Shown here: in pieces, positions 718 to 30,700 of the stretch | Layout: each line of letters begins with the position of its first letter | Numbering within the stretch: position 1 is the stretch's first letter | Assembly: GCA_946803715.1 (NCBI GenBank) | Contig: CAMPET010000145.1 | Location: forward strand, 121,044 to 155,685 | Direction of reading: 5' to 3' | Length of the DNA stretch: 34,642 bases | Source of the DNA: Beroe ovata | Taxonomy: Eukaryota > Ctenophora > Nuda > Beroida > Beroidae | Notes under the pieces: model-generated | Told to the model about the DNA's origin: nothing | What the model saw: only the letters and a program-made list of their open reading frames with translations | Database searches by the model: none | Program-made: the position numbers and the translations under genes

Positions 718-721
718 TTAT
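716..721 (-). terminator. AATAAA polyadenylation signal overlapping the fusogen stop
   Basis: On the minus strand the last codons read ATT CAA TAA followed by ATAGGG. The hexamer AATAAA therefore includes the stop codon. It is the nearest canonical poly(A) signal, and if used it leaves almost no 3' UTR. Confidence 0.45.
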
Positions 722-3700
722 TGAATTGATAGAATACATGCCTCATTCTTCTTTTTAGACTTGCACTTGCAAAGGCCACAACACGTCAAGCACTGGTACA
801 AACACCCGAACATCTTGAGAAGCTTGGTCAGGATTCCTATCACTATGGCAACCAAGATGCACACCACGGTGATAATTACCCCCTCAACCCAGGAGGGTTT
901 ACCCCCCGTAAACCACTGAACGGGGTTGAGGTATTTTCCCCATGTTGAGAGGGAGAGAATGTCGTCGTGTTCTGCCCGTTCATACTCGATTTCGTCCTCA
1001 GGGACGGCAAATTTCGAGTTTTTGTCCTCCGTACAGATCACCTACAGAGGCAGGGGTTAGCCAGGAGGCTGATAAGGGGCTCCCCGGTTAGAAATCCTCG
1101 GTTAGTTAGTGCAATGGAACTGGGAGGTAAGGAGAAATCCTACAATGGGTCGTGTTTGGGTAGGAGAATTAACAGCTACCACTAGTCATGAGTCCTCATG
1201 AATGAGGATTAAGTCCTCATACAACGCAATCTCCCCCGACCTGTTTGCAAATCTCGCTCCTCTGATCTCCTCCCCGGGGCTTGACACAAACCTCCGCAAC
1301 CTTCCCTACCACATCTCCTCCTCCCACCGCAGCTGATGACGCCATCTTCCTATCTCGGCACACACTGCTGATCCTGATGTACCGCTGGTACTCAGGGGTG
1401 TGACGGGTAGGAATGTGGAGGGAAAAATGGTCGCCTTCCGAGTACAACTTCTGGAAAGAGGGTGATATTGGAAAAATAGCAAAATTTAAGGTCAATAATA
1501 ATGCTTGAAGTGGGTGATGGAAACATCTAATAAGATTAATGGTAATTGACTTCTCCGCCGACGCCACCTTTGCGCCCACAAAGTGCCCCCTTTTGGGGGC
1601 GATAAGGGGGCGTCGGTAGAGCAGTCAATGACCAGATTAAATCCTGCCGACAATACCTCGACTGTTCCATCGATGCTCCCTGAGGCACCAACAGCAGTCA
1701 GATTGAGGATGCGATTGGAAAACTTATCGAGCATGATGTGTCCCTCGAAATCAGCAATGTACGACTTGTCGTGGATGAAATCTATCTTACTCTTCTCGTT
1801 GAATGTAAGCTTCAAGTTGAGAAGTGGGGAGGTCCTGGGAGAGAGAGAGATGAGGGAGAAATGGAGAAGGATGGCCAGTTTCAATGAATTTTCCTGTCCT
1901 TGTCTTTTTTCAATTATAATTTGTGAAAGAGGATGTCTATTTGACCGACTTTAGTCAAACAGAGAATAGATGTAAACTGAGCTGTCTCTGTACTGACCAT
2001 TTCACTCCCACTTTGGTTCCCACTTTCACTCCCACTTTGCTGCAAGGATCATATCATACCTGTGATATGCGATGACTTGACGAGAAGTATCATTCCGAAC
2101 CGCTTTCTGTATCTTCCCGAACAGGTAAGTGTGGACTGTCTCAGCTTCAGATGGATATCTGTTGTAGTAGGAAGCAGCAAAATCTGTCGGGAGGAGGGGG
2201 GGTAGAGTCAAGACCGTATTAAAGAGAATGATCGGGTACGGAATAGTCTTGCCCTGAATTTCTGAAGTGAAGGTATTGCTAAAGGAATAATATTGCTCTG
2301 AACTTGTCTTTCATCAGAATCTTCAGGACACCAACACTACGACGGATATTGTTCTCGATTCTATACCCACTGACTTGTATCGAGCAAGTTTTCGCCACAG
2401 TTCTGTGTCAAAGCTGAGAATGCGTCTCCGACAATACTCTTCCTAATCGTTTCCACGCCGTCCTGGACTTTGTACCAGCCCAGTTTGTTCATGTCCCACT
2501 CGTTCAGTCTGCGGTGTCGGAAATGGTGTCAAAGATGCCGCGTGATACGTCATAAACTGGTGTCAGCGATAGATCATGAACGACTGGAGTCGATGAAATG
2601 TCAAAAACTGTTAGCGTTGGATCATGACCAGGTACCAATGTCAACGATACTGGTGTCAATGAAACTGGTGCAAATGGAATGTGGAAACAGCTGGTGTCAA
2701 CGAAACTGGTGTCAATGAAACGACATTGGTGTCAGTGAAACTGGTGTCAATGAAATGTCGAAACACCTGGTGTCAATGAAACTGGTGTCAATGTAACTGG
2801 TGTCAACTCACCCGTTAATCTGCACATTTGTCTTCAGTTCCCCTGAGTTTGTTCTCCCGAAATACCAGCCGGGAGGGAGCAGACTAGCCGTGCTGGAACT
2901 CACAATATTCATCGTAACTGTGGAGAGCAGGGAGTTGTGAGTCAATGATTAAGTTGCTTGTTTCAAGAAAAGATGGGGATCTTGGATGCGACAAATTCGT
3001 CAAATCACTGGCAACTTGGAAACTTTATCATATTACAAAAACAAACCATGCGTTCACACCAGCTATAATCAGCATACGCCACGCCAATCCCACTCTTCCA
3101 ACACACCAATCTCATCAGAGGTCACGCCACTATCCAAATCCACGTTGTACACCCTATCCTTGACCAAATGTTCGTTGGTTTTCATGTCGATTACGTTGAG
3201 TCGGAGTTGAGCTACTGTCACGGGACTGGCTATCTCAACAGCTCGATAAGTGTCGGCTGAAAATCTGAAATCCCAGGAGTAATTGTCATTGTCATTGTTC
3301 CAATTATGATAAATATAATCTTCTATTCACTGTTTGACATCAAATCGTATCGCGTATTGAGACCGGAAAACCAAGAAAACCTAGAAATTGTAGGGCTACA
3401 TGATAAAACCTGGTTATATCGAGGTTACAACAGCTCTGCCCTGAACCAGTGAACATGAGACACCCCTCGAGTGTCTGTCCGTCATCATACCAGTTAACAC
3501 ACGTGTCAGCATTCTTGTCATACCTGAGAACACGTGAGTGAACTGAATATCAGATTGTCAAACAGACCACACGGACACATAGACACAGACTGGTAAAGTT
3601 ATTCATAACGAGACGAACAAAGACACATGGAGGGACTCAAAGACACGAAACGAAAGGGAGAAACGAACATCAACTCACTTGTCACAGGAGTCAGTATCAG

Positions 3701-4189
3701 AGTCGCACTGGTTGCTGAAACCCGGGCAGTCACACCAACACGTGACTTCCGTCCCAGGGATTGCGAATTCGTACGTGTTTTTGTAGTTGTACACGTGTTT
3801 TAGAGTGTCGTACGTGATGGTGTAGAGTTCAGTTCGTTCCACCTCGACGCCGGGAATGTGTGTGGTGTAGTTGTAGGATCGTCTGCGGGGCAGACTTGAG
3901 AAAAGGCGGAAATTGGGGGTGAGAAAGAATGGGAAACGGTTGAGAAACTTGATAATCAAAGCACTTGGCAGTGACGGAAACTTTCACTTTTCACCAGCAC
4001 TCACTTGTAGCAGAGTGTCTCATCAAGACCAATATTACTGCTTATCACCGTCTTGACACTCCTGACACCCCCCTTATTTGTTTCGAGCTCCATTTCCCCG
4101 GTTAAGGACCCGGACGGCTGAGAACACAGGGTGGGTAGGTTGAAAGTGGTTGCGTTGTCGAGCAACACGGAGAACAGGATGAGAAACAT
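718..4189 (-). CDS. EFF-1/AFF-1-family (FF) cell-cell fusogen, 608 aa, 10 exons
   Basis: Exons (minus): 4189-4005, 3894-3679, 3523-3410, 3264-3107, 2917-2812, 2508-2375, 2261-2060, 1834-1657, 1450-1241, 1041-718. Every junction is GT-AG and keeps phase. The product is a type I membrane glycoprotein. It starts with a hydrophobic stretch (MFLILFSVLL), has a large cysteine-rich ectodomain and a membrane segment at about residues 555-574, and ends in a 34-residue Cys/Lys-rich tail. Motifs recalled from nematode EFF-1/AFF-1 occur in order: a WCDCPG cysteine cluster, CCNLDI, a TYRAVEIASPVT stretch, PPGWYFGRTNSG, LNEWDMNKLGWYK, DFEGHI, SGSIDGTVE, a C-x12-C pair at residues 485-498, and WGKYLNPVQWF before the membrane. 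Family members fuse somatic cells, acting from both membranes, and share the class II fold with HAP2. The exon 6/7 and 8/9 junctions are least certain. HAP2 was considered, but motif order and the juxtamembrane match favour FF. Confidence 0.88.
2540..2811. repeat. intronic minisatellite with GGTGTCAA core
   Basis: Most of fusogen intron 5 (2509-2811) is built from variants of a 15-bp unit, GAAACTGGTGTCAAT. Many copies are interrupted by short spacers such as ATGTCGAAACA. The repeat ends immediately beside the donor of exon 5. The same GGTGTCAA/TTGACACC core recurs in other introns and flanks of this window. Confidence 0.85.
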
Positions 4190-5687: not shown

Positions 5688-8501
5688 CTAAACATCCTCC
5701 GCCAGGAAGCTCTCAATCTCCTCCACAGTTCTTGGCAGATCATGCGAGAGCAACTCCACTCCATCCTCAGTAACAGCAACAACATCCTCAATCCTCACTC
5801 CGCCCATCCCTCTAAACTCCTCAATCCTCGATTTGTTCAGGAACCTTGCTTTTGCCGGGTCTTCATATGCTGCCTCAATCAGGACATCTGGGAAATACAC
5901 GCCAGGCTCCACAGTGACGACCATACCCTTTTCCAGAACAACAAGAGATGAATTCCTCGTCCTAGCTACATCATGTACATCCAGCCCTATGTAATGTGTC
6001 AAGCCGTGCGGGTAGAAAATATCGTCAATCAGCGCCTCTTTCATTTCCTCCGCTGTCCCGTTCACCAGAAGCCCGCCCGCAATAAACTCCCGCAGGATTG
6101 TCAACTCGGAAATATCATTCATATCAGCCCACGTCATACCAGGTTTCATAGCGGCGATCACAGCTCTATTCGCTGCGAGGCACGTCTCGTAAACCAGTCT
6201 CTGATTATCGGTGAATTTCCCGTTAGCAGGCCAGGACACAGTGACATCGGTTGTGTAGCCAGCGTACTCGCCCCCCACATCAAACAGTAACATATCTCCA
6301 TCCTCCACCATCCGGTCATTGGGTTCACCAGCATGGCCATAATGCAGGACAGCCGTATTCTCGCCACTTGCACAAATACTAGTATAGCCGTTAAATCTCA
6401 TGCCACCTCGAGTGTATATGTAGTGTTTGAACGTCGATTCCCCCTCATATTCCATTCGTCCGGGCCTCATCATTTTCATCACTTCCCGGTGTGCTTCACA
6501 ACTCAACTGTGTAACGTATCGCATGATCTTCAACTCTTCTTCAGTTTTGATAGCCCTCAGTGCTGCCATTTCCAGGTAGAGAGTCGAGTCATCGACTGAG
6601 AAATTCTCAATTCCTGCAAAGAAAAGTGCGGGGAGATTCGCACCGCTGTAAATGTTTGAACCACTCATCGTAAGAAGGACAGGGGGATTCACTTCTGATG
6701 AAAGTGTGGTCGCCATTTCATCTACGTAGACCACACTATCAACCCCATATCGCTGCCGGAAATACTCGGGGGTTTTGAGGGGTCCCATCCACACAGCATA
6801 CGAATCCGGGAGTCGCGGCATGAATAGGTAACTCACACAACCAGACAAACTCACAGCTCCATAGAAATCTGCCTCCACAACCCCAAACAACCACATGAAA
6901 TAAGACTCCTGCTGGAATTCTGTATCTCTATCCGAATCGTACATAGTTTCCTGAGTCCCGCCCTGCAGGACCATAACAGCGTCAGAGTCGATACCTTTCC
7001 CCGCTAACCTCTCACAAAGCCTCCTCCGATTATCTTTAAACAGAGAGTTGGGGATTCTGAGTGTCCCTGGCCCGACTTGGTAATAATCAGGGATGTCCGG
7101 TTCATTTCGGTTATAGTACAAGGAATGGGTGATCAACGCCAGCAACCCATCCACATTTTCCTCCGCAGTTTCCCGGATTTGACTTGGCGGCAGCTCAAAC
7201 CCATAGGTCCCGTTATCTCGCAATTCCACAGTGTACGCATCAACCACGCCCAGTTCTAGATGGGCCCAGTCCGCGCTACTACCGCTGTGTGGATAGAGAG
7301 ATGCAGCCCGCTGAGCAGTGTACAATGTCCCGTGTCGACCCCGTATCGCGTCAACCACAGCACGACCAATTTGTTGATAGTGTGGTTGATGCTCGGTTAT
7401 TGTATCGGTTGTGTACCCCAGAGGGGTTAGGAATAACTGTGAGTAGCTGTGGTAGGAGACGTAGATTTTCAACAGATCCTTTCTACTCTCGAGGTAATTC
7501 TTCACGGCAGCGGTGTTATGTTGGTCGAATGGGGCACCACCAGGATAAACATTGCTGCAAGGATTAGAGCTAACCCCGGATGTTGCCCAGAAATCAGTTC
7601 CCCAGTTCCTATTCGGGTCGGTACCTAAACATTTCTCAGTGAAGCAGCCCCCGAACCAGTTGGTTTCGTTCTTGAAACATCCGGATGGTTTTCGTGTTTT
7701 ACGCCATAGCCGGTCGATTTGTGTGTGCTCACATCCATCTGGATTCAGACAGGGAGCGATAACAAATTGAAACATTTCCAACAGTTCCTCCACCTCCTTC
7801 TTCTTCTCCTCCTCTTCCAAACCCAGGAAAGTGTGGATGAAGTAGGTCACCGTTGCTGGGGAAACCCATTCCCGTGCATGTATCCCCCCGTCAATCCAAA
7901 TCATTGGTTTGGAATCGGAGCTCGAATCGGCAATGTTCTTCGTGATTCTCAGGGCTATGATCTTCCTCCCCTCGTAGGTATCTCCCGGCAAATCAAACAG
8001 TTCCACCATATCACTGTGATTAGCGGATAACGCTTCCAGATGATCATACAACACATCCAATTTGTGATATGTTTCAAAGTTGAAATGGCCTGGTTTAACT
8101 GCTGAATTGAGCAGGAGCAATTTCTCCTCCTTGATTGAGCTCCCTACATTGGAGTTCAGCACTGTGCTGCCGTCGAATATTCCAGAATCAGCGAGGGAAA
8201 ACTTGGGGTTTACTACGGTGTCAATGAACCCAGCGTGACCATCAGATAGGAGGTCGAGAACACCTTCAGCTTCTAATTTGAGGAGTGATTCCATAACTGA
8301 GGGTGATCGTAGGGGGACACGGAGGATCTGTGGGAGGAATTAGCCAATGAAAAACGAGAATAGATATCATGTGATCGGGTTATTGACCAATAGGAGTGAG
8401 CGGCTTACCTTGTAATTTTCATATGATTTGGTGGGGTACCTCACGGAATTTGTGTCCACCAGGGGCACTAACAAGAGAGGGAACACAAAAATTCGCCACA
8501 T
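5688..8501 (-). CDS. secreted M14 carboxypeptidase-M24B prolidase fusion, 910 aa
   Basis: Exon 1 (8501-8409) encodes a signal peptide (MWRIFVFPLLLVPLVDT). Exon 2 (8327-5688) is one uninterrupted frame. The phase-0 intron has GTAAGC and CACAG ends. Residues 32 to about 75 are the end of an M14A propeptide (ILRVPLRSP). The carboxypeptidase domain (about 105-435) has zinc ligands His181 and Glu184 (HAREW) and His324 (SYHSYSQ), catalytic Glu400 (VELRD), Arg in RLWRKTR, DPNRNW, and the Tyr of SLYPHSG. Residue 255 (bovine numbering) reads Ala, so a neutral A-type pocket is likely. After only a short linker a full prolidase follows (about 440-910): an AMP_N domain, then metal ligands Asp714, Asp725, His805, Glu838 and Glu878. 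Prolidase cleaves X-Pro dipeptides and is normally cytosolic, so secretion by this leader is unusual. The protein probably degrades peptides extracellularly or in a digestive vacuole. Confidence 0.95.
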
Positions 8502-9060: not shown

Positions 9061-12000
9061 GTTTTACGGTTGTCGTTGGTTTAATCCCAAAAGATGAAGC
9101 TGGACCACAGGGCAGATGAGGCAATCTCTTTCCCAAACAGTTGAACTCATATTCGTGACTTCCTATTTCAGGCCACTGAGAGGAGAGGGGAAGTCGAACA
9201 CAATGAAATATTTTGGAGAATTATCAGATTTGAAGTTTTATTTGACTTCGGTTTATGTTTAAATTGATTTTGAACTATAATGCGCGCTGCCATGGACAGG
9301 GGAAATCAATGATTTTGCATTGTTTGCTACCCACAGGTTTGAAAAATAAGCAGCACAAGTGCCAGTATTCCAGTAAAGTCTTCATTACAGACCCTTAAAA
9401 TCAGAGTATGAAAGTGTGGGATCATCCACTTGACTTTTTACAAGATAAGAAATCCGAGGAAAATTTTTCCTCAGTTTAGCGACAGATAAAGGGTGTTTTT
9501 GGACTAATTTTTGACGTAGAATCCGAATCTGAAAGAATTATTGGGCTAGCTTGATGGGAAATCGGTCAAAATTCCAATTCCTTCACAGTTGTGATATTTA
9601 AAGTCGCGTGAAAGATAGCTCTTCAGGGAAGCAAGATAGAGCCAAAATTCGTTCAGAAATCGATTCAGCATCAAAAAATACGTAGGAATCGATGATTTTT
9701 GCATTTAAATTGAGCAAAAAATTTTTCCGGTTTTGGTGTGTCCCATTGATTTTCGTGTTTTTGCACTGTTTGCTTCCCACAGGTTTGAAATTGTGTTTTG
9801 GGCGTGGTTTTACGGCAAGTATGAACACTTCATAATCGCAACGAGGGTTGTTCCTTGTAGTGTGATAGTAGGAGAGATGATTTGGTGAAAAATAAGCAGC
9901 ACAAGTGCCAGTAAAGTCTTCGTTAAAGACCCTCAAAATCGGAGTATAAAAGTGTGGGATCATCCACTTCACTTTTTACTGATGCCCAGATAAGAAATCC
10001 GAGAAAATTTTTTTCTCACTTAAGTGGCTCGCAAAGAGTGTTTCTGGCCTATTTTTTGACGTAGAATCCGAATCTGGGAGAATTATCGAGTTATCTCGAT
10101 GGGAAATCGCTCAAAATTCCAATTCCTTCACAGTTGTGAGGATAAAAGTCACGTGATGGATAGCTCATCAGGGAAGCGAGATAGAGCCAAAATTCGTTCA
10201 GGAATCGATTCAGCGTCAAAAAATACGTAGGAAACGGTGTTTTTCACATTAAAATTGAGCAAAAAATTTTTCCGGTTTTGGTGCGTCCCATTGATTTTCG
10301 TGTTTTTGCACTGTTTGCTTCCCACAGGTTTGAAATCGTGTTTTGGGCGTGGTTTTACGGCAAGTATGAACTCTTCATGATCGCAACGAGGGTTGTTCCT
10401 TGTAGTGTGATAGTAGCAGAGATGATTTGGTGAAAAATAAGCAGCACAAGTACCAGTAAAGTCTTCATTAGAGACACTCAAAATCGGAGTAAAAAAGTGT
10501 GAGATCATCCACTTCACTTTTTACTGATACACATAAGAAATCCGAGAAAAATTTTTTCCCACTTTAGTGACTGGTAAAGAGTGTTTCTGGCCTATTTTTT
10601 GACGTAGAATCCGAATCTGGAAGAATTATTAAGCTAGCTCGATGGGAAATCGCTCAAAATTCCAATTCCGTCACAGTTGCGAGGATAAATGTCACGTGAT
10701 AGATCAGGGAAGCGAGATAGAAATCGTTCCTGACTTTGATCACAGTGCCGGTAATGCCGGTAAATGGCACACAAATTCCAGTTTTGTATATTACAGTGCA
10801 GAGCGCAATAATCTTCCTCTCTGGACAACAAATCACCATGGAAACAGGAATTACTTCTCCAAATTACATGGAAATTCACTGAACTATTGACTCGCCACTT
10901 GATAGGGAACGTAAGAGGATAGGGTTTGAATTTAACAACGACCGATCTCAGATCAGATACGGGAAGATGCAGATGAAAAGTAGTATCGGTTACTTACTTT
11001 CTCCTCAAAGTTAGTTTTTATCTTCCACACATCATTGGTCGCAAACCAGGCTTTCTCCCAACTTGTCCTGCCTTTGCCAAACCCTCCGTCTGCGATAATA
11101 AACTTTCAATAAGTTTGAGAAAGCTGCCAACTACCTATCTATACGTGCTTAGTGGATATTTTATCATTTATTGGATAGTTCATATTATTGAATTAAAGCC
11201 AACAAATCGCCGGTCTTGTAATCGAGATAAAATAGATATTGAATTTCAAACATATGGGTAATACTTACGTAAACCAAATAAATATTATGGTATCTCACAC
11301 GTTTGATTTTGATGGAGACTCACCTTTTTCACCTAGCTTCTGACCGAATGAGTAACTCGGTGCGGTGGGGGAGAGAATGGGGTAGTACTGGTCTGGAGCA
11401 GGTCGTGGTGAGGGCAGTCTCTCAGCAAATCTCGGAGTATTGACTGGAGGAGAATTGGAGTTGTAACATGTGATGAATTTACATGACATGTGATGAAAAG
11501 TCTATAACATGCATTGTAACCGGTTGTATTGTAATGCACAATGCATGGTACAGGTATCATAAATGTTTCTATAAAATTCTAACTGCATAAGAGTTGTTAA
11601 ATGTTTACTTGTCACTATTGTATGTTACATTTACATGATATTTTAAGCAACATCACACGGCCCAAGGCTATAGCATAATATGGTAAGCAAGATTTTCAGT
11701 GTTTAATTCATCAGCTGCTACAACAGTAAGATAATTTCAGGACTGTATGTACCATCATGCACTGCAGTGTAATATACAGTGTAAATGTGCTTGATTTTAA
11801 AACTACAATCAAGCTGAGATTGCAACTGACTCCATTAGGGAGGTCATTATAATGATTTCACTATCCATGAATTGGAACTGCACATTGGGGAACAAACCCT
11901 CTTTTTTCAAGGGAACTGTTGGAATTGTATAGGGAATATGCATTTCTCTTGAATATTCTGAAACATTCATCAGACATATGTATTTGTAATGATATTAACA

Positions 12001-23064: not shown

Positions 23065-25375
23065 CAATTTCATCAACTTTAATTGGTTTGAATTTATTTT
23101 CAAAAACATATTTCGGGTTTGATTACATTTTATGATATTTAGACAATTGTTGAACAAGAAGAGGTATAATGAAATCTTGATTATAGAATCGAAGCCATTT
23201 TAATTTTGCACAAGTATGGGATACTGTCAAAACGTCCATAATAAGAATACTAGAGCAGCATTGAAACCACACACTAGTTCTTATTTTCCCTAGAATATAC
23301 CTCTAAAACCATCATCAAGTCTTAATAAAATGTGTCATTAATAAGATCAGTAACTTGAGTATCATAATTTAAATCTCGACTCGATTTAATAGAGTATAAA
23401 ACAAAACATCAAATAATATTATTATTTATTATTGAAAAAGTGAAACTTAAAACAGGTTAGCATCCATTCATATGAGACATCAATGATCAATATTGATATT
23501 GAAATTCTTTCACCAAACTAAAATTGTTGATGAACCTATGATATTTAAAGCCTGAAAGAAATACCATACCATCACTTTTTCAGAGGAATATAAATTGATT
23601 AAAATAAAAACTGTCCTAGAATGCTGTTTCCTTCCATATATAGTTCATCAACAGCCTTGTATTTACATTGTGGTCTGTATGAAAACTCTAAAGTATTTAC
23701 ATCCAGTTTTCACCCCCCTTGAAGTAGTACAATCAAAACTTGTCCGTTAAGTTTTTGACCCACGATATTGCTTATTCTGTCTTTCGGGGTCATGAATAGA
23801 AATCCAACAATTTCTTGCAATCTGTGGAATGTAAAAGATGTAAAGATGGGATTGTACAGATTTTTAAGAAATCATTAAGTTCAATGTGCTTGTGGTATTA
23901 CCTGCAATGGACCCTACATTTTCCTTGCTATGGGATTGTTTACATGCGTAATAGGACAGTTGTACAATGGTGACTGGGTCTGCAGGAAAATAGTTATGTT
24001 TAACATAGTTCAAAATGGCAGATCAATATTCATGATTCATTTCAATTTTGTGTTATTTGTTATGGCTTACCTCGGCAAATTTGGCATTTTCCATGTCCTC
24101 AATGAACTTTTTGTACTCTTGCTTGTCCTTATGGGTGACAGCACACTTCCAACAGCAAATGACAATTATTCCTGTAACAAAATGCATTCAATGTTGAGAA
24201 AGGAGCAACATCGCTCAGTATGGGTCTTGGCAAGGCAAGAACCAATTAAATAAGCAACATTACATCATGCACTTAGCAACATCCATAGCAACGTACCCAT
24301 GCAAATGATGGCTGCCATGACTCCCACGATGATATAAATGATGTTCACAGGGCCGCAGTCAGGATCCTTGTTTATATAGAGGAGTCGGCGAGTTTGTCTC
24401 GTCTCATTGGCTGCCGTGTAGTAGTACTCGTAGGTACACTCGTCTTTCTGTTCCGGTAGAATCGATGTAATTTTGGAATATCATATCTTATCTTGATCTA
24501 CTTTTTCTAGATAATGAGAAAGCTCTATAGTTTAAGATTGCTCCATAATAAATCCTGTTATCATTATTGTAATCACATCAATCCCATTTTCAGGCATGTC
24601 TCACCTCAAAGCGGCACCACTTCGTCTGGTTCCTGTCATTGATGTCCTCCTCCAAATCATAGTCCTCCGGGTAGCGCTCTGATGTGAAGAACACCTCCGC
24701 AGCTGGACATGGGGGAGTCAGATGAGCGCACGTGCACAACACAGTGACTATGTGTTGAGCACATGTGACATAGTAATAATCCGTATCCGTCCCAAGAACC
24801 ACGCCCCTCTCTCAGCACAACTTATCCCCGTAACCCCACAACCCCGATATAAATAGCCCCTATTCCCCCCACTCACCAACATCACAGGAATCGCAATCCT
24901 GTGCGTCTCTTCCCGCCACCTCGTCTGTTCCCACAGCACAGAGGACGCACTCCTCAAACTCCTCACACATCTTACAGAACTCACACGACTGACAGTACTT
25001 TCCTGCGGGACAGTTAGAAGTGTTGCAGCGGGGAAACGAGAAGGTAGAGATGAACGGAGGTGATGTTTTGTCATCACTGATAATCTCATTATCAATGAGA
25101 TCCTCATTTCTCTTCATCATTGATGATGAGAAATGAGAAATGGGAAATCAGAGAAACGGGTTGAAGAAAAAGACGAAGCTAGAGAATGAAGATGAATGAG
25201 TCAGGAGGGCGAGTCAGGGTGATAATTTTGCTCAAATAGAGCAAAATGAGCGGAAACATGATGTTTTGATCCATATCATACCTGAGTAAGTATTCCCTCT
25301 GGTGTCGGTGTTGCACTTACACTTGCCACACTCACAGACTCCATTTCCAGCACAATCGTGTCCATCAAACATACA
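23065..25375. repeat. first copy of a 2.3-kb duplicated segment (integrin 3' exons)
   Basis: The segment from CAATTTCATCAACTTTAA at 23065 to CATCAAACATACA at 25375 is repeated almost exactly at 25377-27709. The copies differ by scattered substitutions and small indels. A single N (25376) separates them. Confidence 0.95.
23914..25375 (-). pseudogene. second set of integrin beta 3' exons (duplicate, truncated at an N)
   Basis: Exons here: 25375-25282 (an EGF-type exon cut off at the N), 25002-24877, 24702-24605, 24447-24297 (membrane exon), 24171-24071 and 23979-23914 (tail and stop). They encode the same residues as the 26213-27744 set, as far as I can read. In this copy the donor after the 24702-24605 exon is a normal GTGAGA; the other copy has GTGCCT. 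It is probably the second allele placed in tandem by the assembler. If the duplication is real, it is a 5'-truncated remnant or an alternative 3' end. Confidence 0.7.
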
Positions 25376-25376
25376 N

Positions 25377-27709
25377 CAATTTCATCAACTTTAATTGGTT
25401 TGAATTTATTTTCAAAAACATATTTCGGGTTTGATTACATTTTATTGAATTTAGACAATTATTGAACAAGAAGAGGTATAACGAAATCTTGATTATAGAA
25501 TCGAAGCCATTTTTGCAAAAGTATGAGATACTGTCAAAACGTCCATAATAAGAATACTAGAGCAGCATTGAAAACACACATTAGTTCTTATTTTCCCTAG
25601 AATATACCTCTAAAACCATCTTCAAGTCTTAATAAAATGTGTCATTAATAAGATCAGTAACTTGAGTATCATAATTTAAATCTCGACTCGATTTAATAGA
25701 GTATAAAACAAAACATCAAATAATATTATTATTGAAAAAGTGAAACTTAAAACAGGTTAGCATCCATTCATATGAGACATCAATGATCAATATTGATATT
25801 GAAATTCTTTCACCAAACTAAAATCGTTGATGAACCTATGATATTTAAAGCCTGAAAGAAATACAATACCATCACTTTTTCAGAGGAATATAAATTGATT
25901 AAAATAAAAACTGTCCTAGAATGCTGTTTCCTTGCATATATAGTTCATCAACAGCCTTGTATTTACATTGTGGTCTGTATGAAAACTCTAAAGTATTTAC
26001 ATCCAGTTTTCACCCACCTTGAAGTAGTACAATCAAAACTTGTCCCTTAAGTTTTTGACCCACGATATTGCTTATTCTGTCTTTAGGGGTCATGAATAGA
26101 AATCCAACAATTTCTTGCATCTGTGGAATGTAAAAGATGTAAAGATGAGATTGTCCAGATTTTTAAGAAATCATTAAGTTCAGTGTGCTTGTGGTATTAC
26201 CTGCAATGGACCCTACATTTTCCTTGCTATGGGATTGTTTACATGCGTAATAGGACAGTTGTACAATGGTGACTGGGTCTGCAGGAAAATAGTTATGTTT
26301 AACATAGTTCAAAATGGCAGATCAATATTCATGATTCATTTCAATTTTGTGTTATTTGTTATGGCTTACCTCGGCAAATTTGGCATTTTCCATGTCCTCA
26401 ATGAACTTTTTGTACTCTTGCTTGTCCTTATGGGTGACAGCACACTTCCAACAGCAAATGACAATTATTCCTGTAACAAAATGCATTCAATGTTGAGAAA
26501 GGAGCAACATCGCTCAGTATGGGTCTTGGCAAGGCAAGAACCAATTAAATAAGCAACATTACATCATGCACTTAGCAACATCCATAGCAACGTACCCATG
26601 CAAATGATGGCTGCCATGACTCCCACGATGATATAAATGATGTTCACAGGGCCGCAGTCAGGATCCTTGTTTATATAGAGGAGTCGGCGAGTTTGTCTCG
26701 TCTCATTGGCTGCCGTGTAGTAGTACTCGTAGGTACACTCGTCTTTCTGTTCCGGTAATTTTGGAATATCAAATCTTATCTTTATCTACTTTTTCTAGAT
26801 GAAGAGAAAGCTCTATAGTTTAAGATTGCTCCATAATAAATCCTGTTATCATGATTGTAATCACATCAACCCCTGCCCATTTTCAGGCACCTCAAAGCGG
26901 CACCACTTCGTCTGGTTCCTGTCATTGATGTCCTCCTCCAAATCGTAGTCCTCCGGGTAGCGCTCCGATGTGAAGAACACCTCCGCAGCTGGACATGGAG
27001 GAGTCAGATGAGCGCACGTGCACAACACAGTGACTATGTGTTGAGCACATGTGACATAGTAGTATAGTACATTGTGCAATTGGAAGCCCATTATTAACCC
27101 AATTAATAATCTGTATCCGTCCCGAGAACCACGCCCCTCTCTCTCAGCACAACTTATCCCCGTAACCCCACAACCCCGATATATATAACCCCCTCTTTCC
27201 CCCCACTCACCAACATCACAGGAATCGCAATCCTGTGCGTCTCTTCCCGCCACTTCGTCAGTTCCCACAGCACAGAGGACGCACTCCTCAAACTCCTCAC
27301 ACATCTTACAGAACTCACACGACTGACAGTACTTTCCTGCGGGACAGTTAGAAGTGTTGCAGCGGGGAAACGAGAAGGTAGAGATGAACGGAGGTGATGT
27401 TTTGTCATCACTGATAATCTCATTATCAATGAGATCCTCATTTCTCTTCATCATTGATGATGAGAAATGAGAAATGGGAAATCAGAGAAACGGGTTGAAG
27501 AAAAAGACGAAGCTAGAGAATGAAGATGAATGAGTCAGGAGGGCGAGTCAGGGTGATAATTTTGCTCAAATAGAGCAAAATGAGCGGAAACATGATGTTT
27601 TGATCCATATCATACCTGAGTAAGTATTCCCTCTGGTGTCGGTGTTGCACTTACACTTGCCACACTCACAGACTCCATTTCCAGCACAATCGTGTCCATC
27701 AAACATACA
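25377..27709. repeat. second copy of the 2.3-kb duplicated segment
   Basis: It matches 23065-25375. The copy-specific differences include about 40 extra bases near 27060-27105, a 12-bp loss after TCCGGTA near 26757, and a lost TTTATTA unit in the AT-rich part. It joins smoothly to the upstream integrin exons. Confidence 0.95.
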
Positions 27710-30700
27710 CGACTCCTTGTTTGTCGTGCATCCGCAGTTTGGTCCTGTGTAAAGTTACATTACTCATGGTTATGTTGCTGAGTCTCCATGGTGACTGCGT
27801 TACTATGGTTACATTAAGTAACTTCATTCAACAGAGTCTGACTTACCCGTCCAGCCCTCGAAACATTGGCATTCACTCTGTGTGGAGTTAGCACGGCAAA
27901 CACACTCCCCGTTTCCACTACAATCACAGTTCCTGGCCTCGTTGTTACACTGACAGAAATCTCCGTAGTTCGGTGCTGTAAGGTTGGTAACCATGGTTAC
28001 CATGGGAACAAATGAGATTGAGAGAAACGTAAAGATATAACAATGGGTTGCGTTCAATTTTCAGAAAACCGATATCTGTTACGCCGATTTTTACCGGAAA
28101 ACCATATCGAACCCACCTATACAGTCGCACTTTCCACACCTACACTTTCCCTTCTGAGGTCCAGAACACAGGAGAGCGGAAGCCGAGTTCCCGGGTTTAC
28201 ACATGTCCGTGTCTCCTTGTTCACCTGCAAAATGAGGGGGAGGGGGGTTAGTACACTTGAATTGGTAGCAACCTCGTTAGTTGTTCAGTGTTCATGGATC
28301 GTGTTATCTTAGATAGAACGATGTCAGATCCCAGATCATTTCATTCCGAGAGGACACACAGGTAGAGAGAGGAGGGGGTCTCGTATATGAGATATCCGAG
28401 TTTGTATCTTGGCAAATTTCCATGTCATCAATTTCGATGCAACAACATCGAGACAACTTACCGTCGGGGCATTCACAGAGGTCGCCACTCCACCCCTTAT
28501 CACAGACGCATGCTCCACAAAGGAGATCACCCTTGCCCGAGCAAACTGTTTCATCCCTGGGGACCTGGGGGAGAATTTGAGTGATCAGTGTGCGAACTTT
28601 TGAGTGATCAGTGTGTGAACTTGAGTGATCGACTGTGTGAATGTCGAATGTCGATCTAGGGTAGAGAGAAAGTAGTGGATTAATCTGTGAGAATTTTGCA
28701 GCGGTCATTGCTTATCACTCACACTTGGTACGGTATCGCAATCACAGCCACAGAGCGTTGTAAGATCCAGTTGTAGCTGACCAAAACCAGTGAACTCAAT
28801 AATCTGTAAATGGATATGTTTGTCAATCCTATGTCCTAAGTCAAGTCAAGTATTCTCCAGAGAATGTTTTCGTTTCCGAGAATGTTTTCGTTCCCGAGAA
28901 TGCTTTCGAATGAATGATTTTTGCACGAAAGCAATCAATTAACTAATTACCATTTCTTTAGTTCCCTCTAGACACTGTTCGGCAGTGACTGTAAATTCGA
29001 ACTCGGCATGCTGCTCGATTCCCACGTTTCCACACTCACCGTTCTTCACACCCTCTTCCAAACCTGGGGAATTGACATGGCATTAGATATGAAATAGGGC
29101 ACTATCCGAGGGCAAATGAGGTGGTCGGGCCTCTTGGATAGTGCCTACTGCCAGAAATAGAAATCTTGAGAACGAAATCGAGGAAGATTCGATAGGTCAA
29201 CTAGTCGAAGATAACTTCGTGACTCTAGTTCCATGGTAATCCCGAATATCTTACCAGGACATTTAGCGATGTACTCCATTGAGATTCCCTCAATAGTCTC
29301 AGTTTGGCGAGGTACAATTTTCGAACTGATCGACTGAAAACAAACTCGGTCATAACATCATCACCGGAGCATAAATTGGTTGAACGAAAGCAACAGTCCA
29401 GCAGTGATACTACTATCTATAGCCAGCATAGGAAACCCCCAACTCATTGCTAACCCCAATATATATTTGTTACGTCTAACCCCAGCGGTTCGCTCCGAAA
29501 ACGAGTTTTGTCCATTCTTTCACGGTATATTCTCTATTTAAGAAGTTCTGGCAATTCCTCACCACCCCATACGTTTATTTTTATTTTTGTCCATGTTTTT
29601 CTCACCGCATACTCCTGGTAGATGAGATCGACCAGGTTTTCCGAATCCTCCTGGAGCACTCCCACACTTCCATAGGGAAAGAATGCCCTCAGATCCTCGT
29701 ACAGGTTGAGAACACTTTCCGTTACCCCGAAAATGGGAATCATCTGCTTGCTTACCATCTTCTTAACGACCTGAAAATGTGCTTTCTTGTGTTGACCCAT
29801 TTGGGAGTTCTAAGCAACTGAAGTATTTCAAATCGGAATTCTCTTCGAACGGTCATCTTCAAGTCGGCCCCACTCACTTGATGAATTGAAGGGTAGTCCA
29901 GGATCTTCTCTTTTGAATAAGTTCTCCCATCCTCTAACCAACACTCACCATCATTTCGCTCAATCTGCAATAGAAGTAGAAATAGGATGAGACGACGTCC
30001 GTACGGGAATCCTACAACTGCCGGATAAACCCCAATTCCCCAGTCTCACCCCCCTTTTTCATGACCCCTCCCTCCAAATTATACCTGTCCCCCGAGTTTT
30101 CCATCCCCGGCAAAGTGGAATCCCGTATCGGTGAGGTAGACCACAACTTTCCTCGAGTGATCCCTCCACCCGATCTCGTCCTTGCACGCAGCAACCTGCA
30201 TCAGTGCATCCATTCCTGGGTGGTGGAGTGGGTTCAGTTCTTCCTCAGACCTTATTTGACTGAGCGAGACCTCATTAAGATCTCATTGAGAGTAGATTAG
30301 GTTTATAATACTCGATAATCTTCTCAGAGGGATCTGTCGATAATCCTAAGTTTAGCTGTGTACTTCCACAGACTTCATATGGGCGTTTGGGTGTTAATAG
30401 ATCTTTCCCCCATCTTATTCAAGACAATTCATCCCATGAGAATGTCGAATGATCATTGACGGTGTTCATGAATTTCCATGGATCTCGAGACATCGATTTC
30501 TAACCTGCTTCTGGGAGATCAACAGAGGCCGATACTCGACTAGCGTTGATGAGAGTCTGAAATTTGGTGTGATTTGGAATGGAATTTACATAAAAATGTG
30601 GGCTTTTAAAATGAGGAAAGAATGGAATGCCGCTTGATTGCTCAATCGTGACATCAACACTGGTATTCTGACATCATCACTGGTATTTTGGCATCATCAC

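Follow-up and report, generated by a model that had tools for sequence, protein, structure and literature searches.

The FF Gene and Its Exons

The window analysed here, 34,642 nucleotides of the ctenophore Beroe ovata (contig CAMPET010000145.1 of GenBank assembly GCA_946803715.1, positions 121,044 to 155,685), carries on its minus strand, between positions 718 and 4189, a gene of the FF (EFF-1/AFF-1) family of cell fusogens. Its start codon lies at 4189 and its stop codon ends at 718; nine GT-AG introns of 122–303 bases link ten exons in phase, and a first-pass annotation of the same DNA had arrived at the same coordinates and the same number of in-phase exons. The length it gave for the product, 608 amino acids (aa), was not reproduced; splicing led initially to 592 aa and, after the choice of donors was guided by comparison with the ortholog of Mnemiopsis leidyi (P0001), to a predicted protein of 578 aa. 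The parts of the gene are as follows (identities are to P0001, over the matched stretch).

4005–4189, minus strand: exon 1 (aa 1–62); start codon 4189–4187, short hydrophobic N-terminus, donor GTGAGT; 38% identity
3679–3882, minus strand: exon 2 (aa 62–130); contains the CWCDCPG cysteine cluster; 61% identity
3410–3523, minus strand: exon 3 (aa 130–168); domain II strands c and d with the tip loop; 71% identity
3430–3462, minus strand: domain II tip (cd) loop, C151-LMFTGSGQS-C161, aligned to the EDD loop of EFF-1, which is acidic
3107–3264, minus strand: exon 4 (aa 168–221); donor chosen by the Mnemiopsis protein; 69% identity
2812–2917, minus strand: exon 5 (aa 221–256); PPGWYFG
2375–2508, minus strand: exon 6 (aa 256–301); NKLGWYK
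2060–2183, minus strand: exon 7 (aa 301–342); placed by frame and match to P0001
1657–1834, minus strand: exon 8 (aa 342–401); DFEGHI and SGSIDGTVE
1241–1450, minus strand: exon 9 (aa 402–471); end of the ectodomain, donor chosen by the Mnemiopsis protein
718–1041, minus strand: exon 10 (aa 472–578, then the stop codon); LNPVQWF in the stem, a transmembrane helix beginning near W522, and a cytoplasmic tail rich in cysteine

The two donors that were shifted to match the Mnemiopsis protein are those at the ends of exon 4 (3107) and exon 9 (1241); the shortened exons give the junctions DEI-VTMNI (DEL-VTMNI in the ortholog) and CKQ-VICTEDK (CKM-VVCLEEK), respectively, and in both exons other donors that would keep the frame are present. 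Intron 3 has a weak donor, GTTTTA. When the exons were compared one by one with P0001 in a six-frame search, nine of the ten matched individually, from 8.3e-42 for exon 10 to 1.6e-9 for exon 1, the weakest; exon 9 found no individual match in that search and is placed by its frame and by the alignment of the joined protein. Intron 5, the longest of the nine, contains a minisatellite at 2639–2807 with a best-scoring period of 76 bases and further periods of 41 and 15 bases.

Family Assignment

The Pfam family EFF-AFF (PF14884) matches the protein, searched in its 592-aa version, at 5.1e-66 (223.6 bits against a cut-off of 25) over profile positions 1–466 of 467, which bears out the earlier assignment to the FF family; the gene is also full-length, as had been claimed. 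The same scan, read to an E value of 0.1, returned EFF-AFF alone and neither the HAP2 family nor a viral one, and with this outcome of the Pfam check that the first-pass annotation had proposed, HAP2 identity of the window protein is ruled out. A search of every chain in the Protein Data Bank (PDB), read to an E value of 10, matched EFF-1A of Caenorhabditis elegans alone (3e-32), and a profile built from five rows found residues 37–608 of EFF-1 at 1.2e-56. A chance match is thus excluded for the window gene by sequence comparison.

All motifs listed in the first-pass annotation were found in the order given there: WCDCPG, CCNLDI, PPGWYFG, NKLGWYK, DFEGHI, SGSIDGTVE, the C-x12-C pair (C138 to C151) and LNPVQWF. 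The likeness to C. elegans EFF-1 (PDB 4CYL, 4OJC, 4OJD, and 4OJE) extends over the whole ectodomain and includes the cysteine scaffold, the stem and a single transmembrane helix. Counting the alignment columns with cysteine in 8 or more of the 16 rows, the window protein and EFF-1 have 14 of 16 in common within the ectodomain and 16 of 20 with the tail included; in both proteins, LNPxxW closes the ectodomain immediately before the membrane. The hydropathy peak that marks the transmembrane segment of the window protein starts at residue 525, with a score of 3.04.

That the gene belongs to an animal other than a nematode, as had been proposed, agrees with 61% identity to Mnemiopsis as against 24% to EFF-1; contamination of the assembly by nematode DNA is ruled out by these two values together with FF loci on six contigs of the one assembly.

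A member of this family in ctenophores might be thought to act on gametes in place of HAP2. The search of the genome with HAP2-GCS1 (PF10699) gave no match, as this idea would have it; however, the control of that search matched nowhere either, so the absence of HAP2 is not concluded, and we regard a gamete fusogen that replaces HAP2 as very unlikely.

Orthologs and Predicted Structure

The top match among proteins is the Mnemiopsis leidyi hypothetical protein ACHWQZ_G018899 (P0001), with 61% identity over 562 positions of the alignment. It is followed by EukProt sb/3463226 (P0002), with 56% over 432 positions; the identifier of the latter has the style of Pleurobrachia bachei gene models. Both are orthologs by identity and have a tip loop of the same type; they differ from the window protein in that the cytoplasmic tail of P0001 ends differently and the C-terminal part is missing in P0002. 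Of three protein searches, two yielded P0001 and P0002 alone, and the third yielded just nine relatives of the long-tailed paralog L001 described below. The searches scored only about 8,000 candidates sharing most words, and the absence of FF proteins of nematodes, arthropods, and chordates from their lists is therefore uninformative.

Structure prediction, a further check that had been suggested, was done on the Mnemiopsis ortholog. The predicted fold is that of a three-domain class II protein as in EFF-1, and its match to EFF-1 far exceeds that to HAP2. In structural alignments of this model, identity is 8% with the HAP2/GCS1 gamete fusogens and 7–9% with the viral class II fusion proteins (phenuivirus Gc and relatives) that aligned best. 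The stretch of the model that should form the tip lies between strands 150–155 and 171–206, mostly with a predicted local distance difference test score (pLDDT) below 50.

The Domain II Tip Loop

Domain II of viral class II proteins carries at its tip the cd loop, which serves as the hydrophobic fusion loop; the corresponding loop of EFF-1 is acidic (PMC4050280, PMC12236693, and PMC8784728; PMC, PubMed Central). The acidic EDD is numbered 157–159 in PMC4050280; in the EFF-1 chain (residues 37–608) the only EDD stands at 179–181, an offset of 22, which also fits the four further positions compared with that paper (both DDE motifs, Glu245, and Lys400). The EDD loop is flanked by scaffold cysteines, and the ctenophore loops align there: LMFTGSGQS in the window protein, VWITGSGQS in Mnemiopsis, and IWVTGAGQT in sb/3463226, against SEDDIPKL in EFF-1. 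The window loop thus differs from an EFF-1-like acidic tip in that it is uncharged and has phenylalanine and glycine instead of EDD. This does not exclude the protein from the FF family, because the acidic tip is a described trait of EFF-1 and not one of the family as a whole; AFF-1 is said to be without a charged tip (PMC12236693).

Phenylalanine or tryptophan occurs in the loop of all 15 ctenophore rows aligned; the net charge of the loop is 0 in five of them, −1 in the other ten, and −2 in EFF-1. As a measure of hydrophobicity, each loop was set against all stretches of its length in the ectodomain to which it belongs, and the share that favours the membrane more than the loop was taken. 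The window protein and both orthologs have a share of 5–7%, the paralog L002 one of 7%, the long-tailed paralog L001 and its relative P0003 12% and 14%, a fragment from contig C55 17%, and P0004–P0011, whose loop contains one glutamate, 29–38%; for EFF-1 it is 92%. Because their loops rank so high within the ectodomain, the window protein and its orthologs look as if they had a fusion loop, and most proteins of the long-tailed type do so less. The hydrophobic tip loop could make the window protein a variant within the FF family.

FF Genes in the Genome

The assembly searched comprises 77.8 Mb in 534 contigs. FF matches lie on six contigs (C145, C218, C321, C55, C84, and C200), four of them above the Pfam cut-off: the window gene (C145), two single-exon loci with an unbroken frame, 1024 aa on C218 and 641 aa on C321, and a locus of several exons (C55). 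The match on C84 is weaker, and its C-terminal part alone was recovered, without the tip loop. The locus on C200 (L030, 2054–5646) is very divergent, with E values of 0.69 and 0.04 when the genome was searched; a local profile search placed six frames there above its inclusion threshold, and the tip loop, as read by eye, is LLDLGSQSAVS with one aspartate. By these matches, there are about six FF genes in the part of the genome covered.

The paralog of the C218 type (L001, 16–3090, minus strand) has a cytoplasmic tail of more than 400 aa in its single exon, and the window gene is without such a tail. Nine relatives of L001 (P0003–P0011; 52–75% identity) are among the matches listed. The motifs GHSRNGSRVLLLKN and RRHTVQ at its C-terminus are kept in P0003–P0005.

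In a tree of 16 rows, with EFF-1 as the sole FF sequence from outside the ctenophores, L001 and P0003–P0011 form one clade (100/100), and the window protein, P0001, P0002, and the long-branched L002 are grouped at 94/95, a join without a star. Long branches lead to L002, to EFF-1, and to the C55 fragment; the tree program cautions that joins of this kind can be spurious, so that the placement of these three and the age and branching order of the paralogs are tentative.

The paralogs are strongly divergent, with 27% identity between the window protein and L002 and 30% between it and L001; this, and a tip loop unlike that of EFF-1, would suit an FF-derived receptor or adhesion protein which has no fusion activity. 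Yet the orthologs of 61% identity agree in cysteine scaffold, stem, and transmembrane layout, and the window protein and both of its orthologs retain the hydrophobic character of the loop; we consider a loss of fusion activity improbable.

Other Features of the Window

Adjoining the FF gene on the minus strand (5688–8339) is an uninterrupted frame of 883 aa that encodes a fusion of two peptidases, a zinc carboxypeptidase (Peptidase_M14, 1.9e-76) and an aminopeptidase-P-like part (AMP_N, 2.5e-24; Peptidase_M24, 2.4e-59). A repeat in three direct copies follows at 9370–10817, spaced by about 540 bases and with 61–92% identity to the reference copies; it includes two frames of 125 and 123 aa which are alike in sequence. 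Further along, positions 23065–25146 and 25377–27480 are a tandem duplication of about 2.1 kb, with seven reported matching blocks at a spacing of 2286–2334 bases and 95–99% identity. The fragment at 28304–28711 on the minus strand, with an integrin beta-type EGF domain (I-EGF_1, 8.4e-7), is probably an exon of a larger cysteine-rich gene.

An alternative view is that the gene is a viral class II envelope gene, domesticated or recently captured, which only resembles the FF family. Viral proteins have the class II fold in common with FF proteins, and two of the six FF loci consist of a single exon. The window copy, however, is interrupted by nine introns, and another ctenophore has an ortholog with 61% identity to it; both points also set it apart from viral class II fusion proteins. 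By sequence it matches EFF-AFF and, among solved structures, EFF-1 alone, and the Pfam scan of the protein found no viral family. The neighbours looked at, which do not bear decisively on this point, are the peptidase fusion next to it and, in one of the nine other window frames scanned, an EGF domain. A viral origin is disfavoured and in our view extremely unlikely.

How the Protein May Act

As a ctenophore member of the FF family of class II fusexins, the window gene most likely produces a fusogen of the cell surface, a reading in which we have considerable confidence. By analogy with EFF-1, the ectodomain, composed of domains I, II, and III, would be displayed on one membrane and anchored there by the single C-terminal transmembrane helix, and the tip of domain II would contact the apposed membrane, where it might either insert (a one-sided mechanism) or meet a partner (a two-sided one). 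Folding back into a trimer of hairpins would then draw stem and tip together, and the two plasma membranes would merge. In ctenophores, such a protein may serve the building of syncytia or the joining of cell processes.

Several observations weigh against this reading. The N-terminal hydrophobic stretch, MFLILFSVLL, resembles a signal peptide but is short and falls below the 19-residue hydropathy threshold; of the type I topology proposed in the first-pass annotation, the C-terminal membrane helix is borne out, and the signal peptide less so. The structure models are of moderate confidence (mean pLDDT from 63.0 to 35.1 in the first set of five), and the tip loop scores below 50 in both best models. 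EFF-1, the sole characterised member compared, is only 24% identical, and no ctenophore FF protein with demonstrated activity was found in the open-licence PMC literature searched.

It may also be that the protein serves mainly in sealing, scission, or self-fusion within one cell, such as phagosome closure, tube formation, or wound repair. In C. elegans, endocytic scission is reported to involve AFF-1, and the closure of phagosomes to involve EFF-1 (PMC5931541 and PMC11996554); but both nematode proteins fuse cells as well, and the sequence gives no decision. As the same proteins do both, this alternative, to which we give a low probability, concerns the choice of site and not the mechanism.

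Implications for Ctenophore Syncytia

A ctenophore fusogen could equally well act in multinucleate muscle, in wound closure, or in the gametes. At least one syncytium of these animals already poses a riddle: Burkhardt and colleagues described the subepithelial nerve net of young Mnemiopsis as a continuous syncytium and raised the question of whether the neurons remain connected once they have divided or instead extend towards others and fuse with them (PMC7617566). The Discussion of that paper names no fusion protein, and the word "fusogen" occurs in the paper once, in the reference list; in the available portions of two reviews of ctenophore neural systems (PMC9816575 and PMC10730927), "EFF-1" and "fusogen" likewise stand in the reference lists only. 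No paper in the open-licence PMC literature searched was found to connect the FF genes of ctenophores with the syncytial nerve net, and the connection drawn here is our own inference. The window gene is not the first of its kind, since FF members in "a ctenophore" are already in print (PMC4723337); the literature searched showed nothing on how many FF genes a single ctenophore genome has, on the long-tailed type with one exon, or on a hydrophobic loop at the tip.

A more far-reaching and rather doubtful proposal would connect these points: the FF proteins of ctenophores might have kept a hydrophobic fusion loop of the class II type, which nematode EFF-1 would have exchanged for an acidic patch; they might insert it into the target membrane and could then act one-sidedly, the two-sided mechanism, regarded as typical of the FF family, being a derived trait of nematodes, and the about six genes might together build the syncytial subepithelial nerve net. 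Through the difference in the tip loop, it can be tested directly why the FF fusogens of nematodes depend on both membranes.

Schultz et al. (2023) reportedly place ctenophores as sister to other animals; if so, FF genes in both ctenophores and nematodes would imply a fusogen in the animal ancestor or a later transfer, with wide loss. For the biology of ctenophores, this FF gene, full-length and with a Mnemiopsis ortholog, is a concrete, named candidate for the merging of cells, perhaps including those of the fused nerve net.
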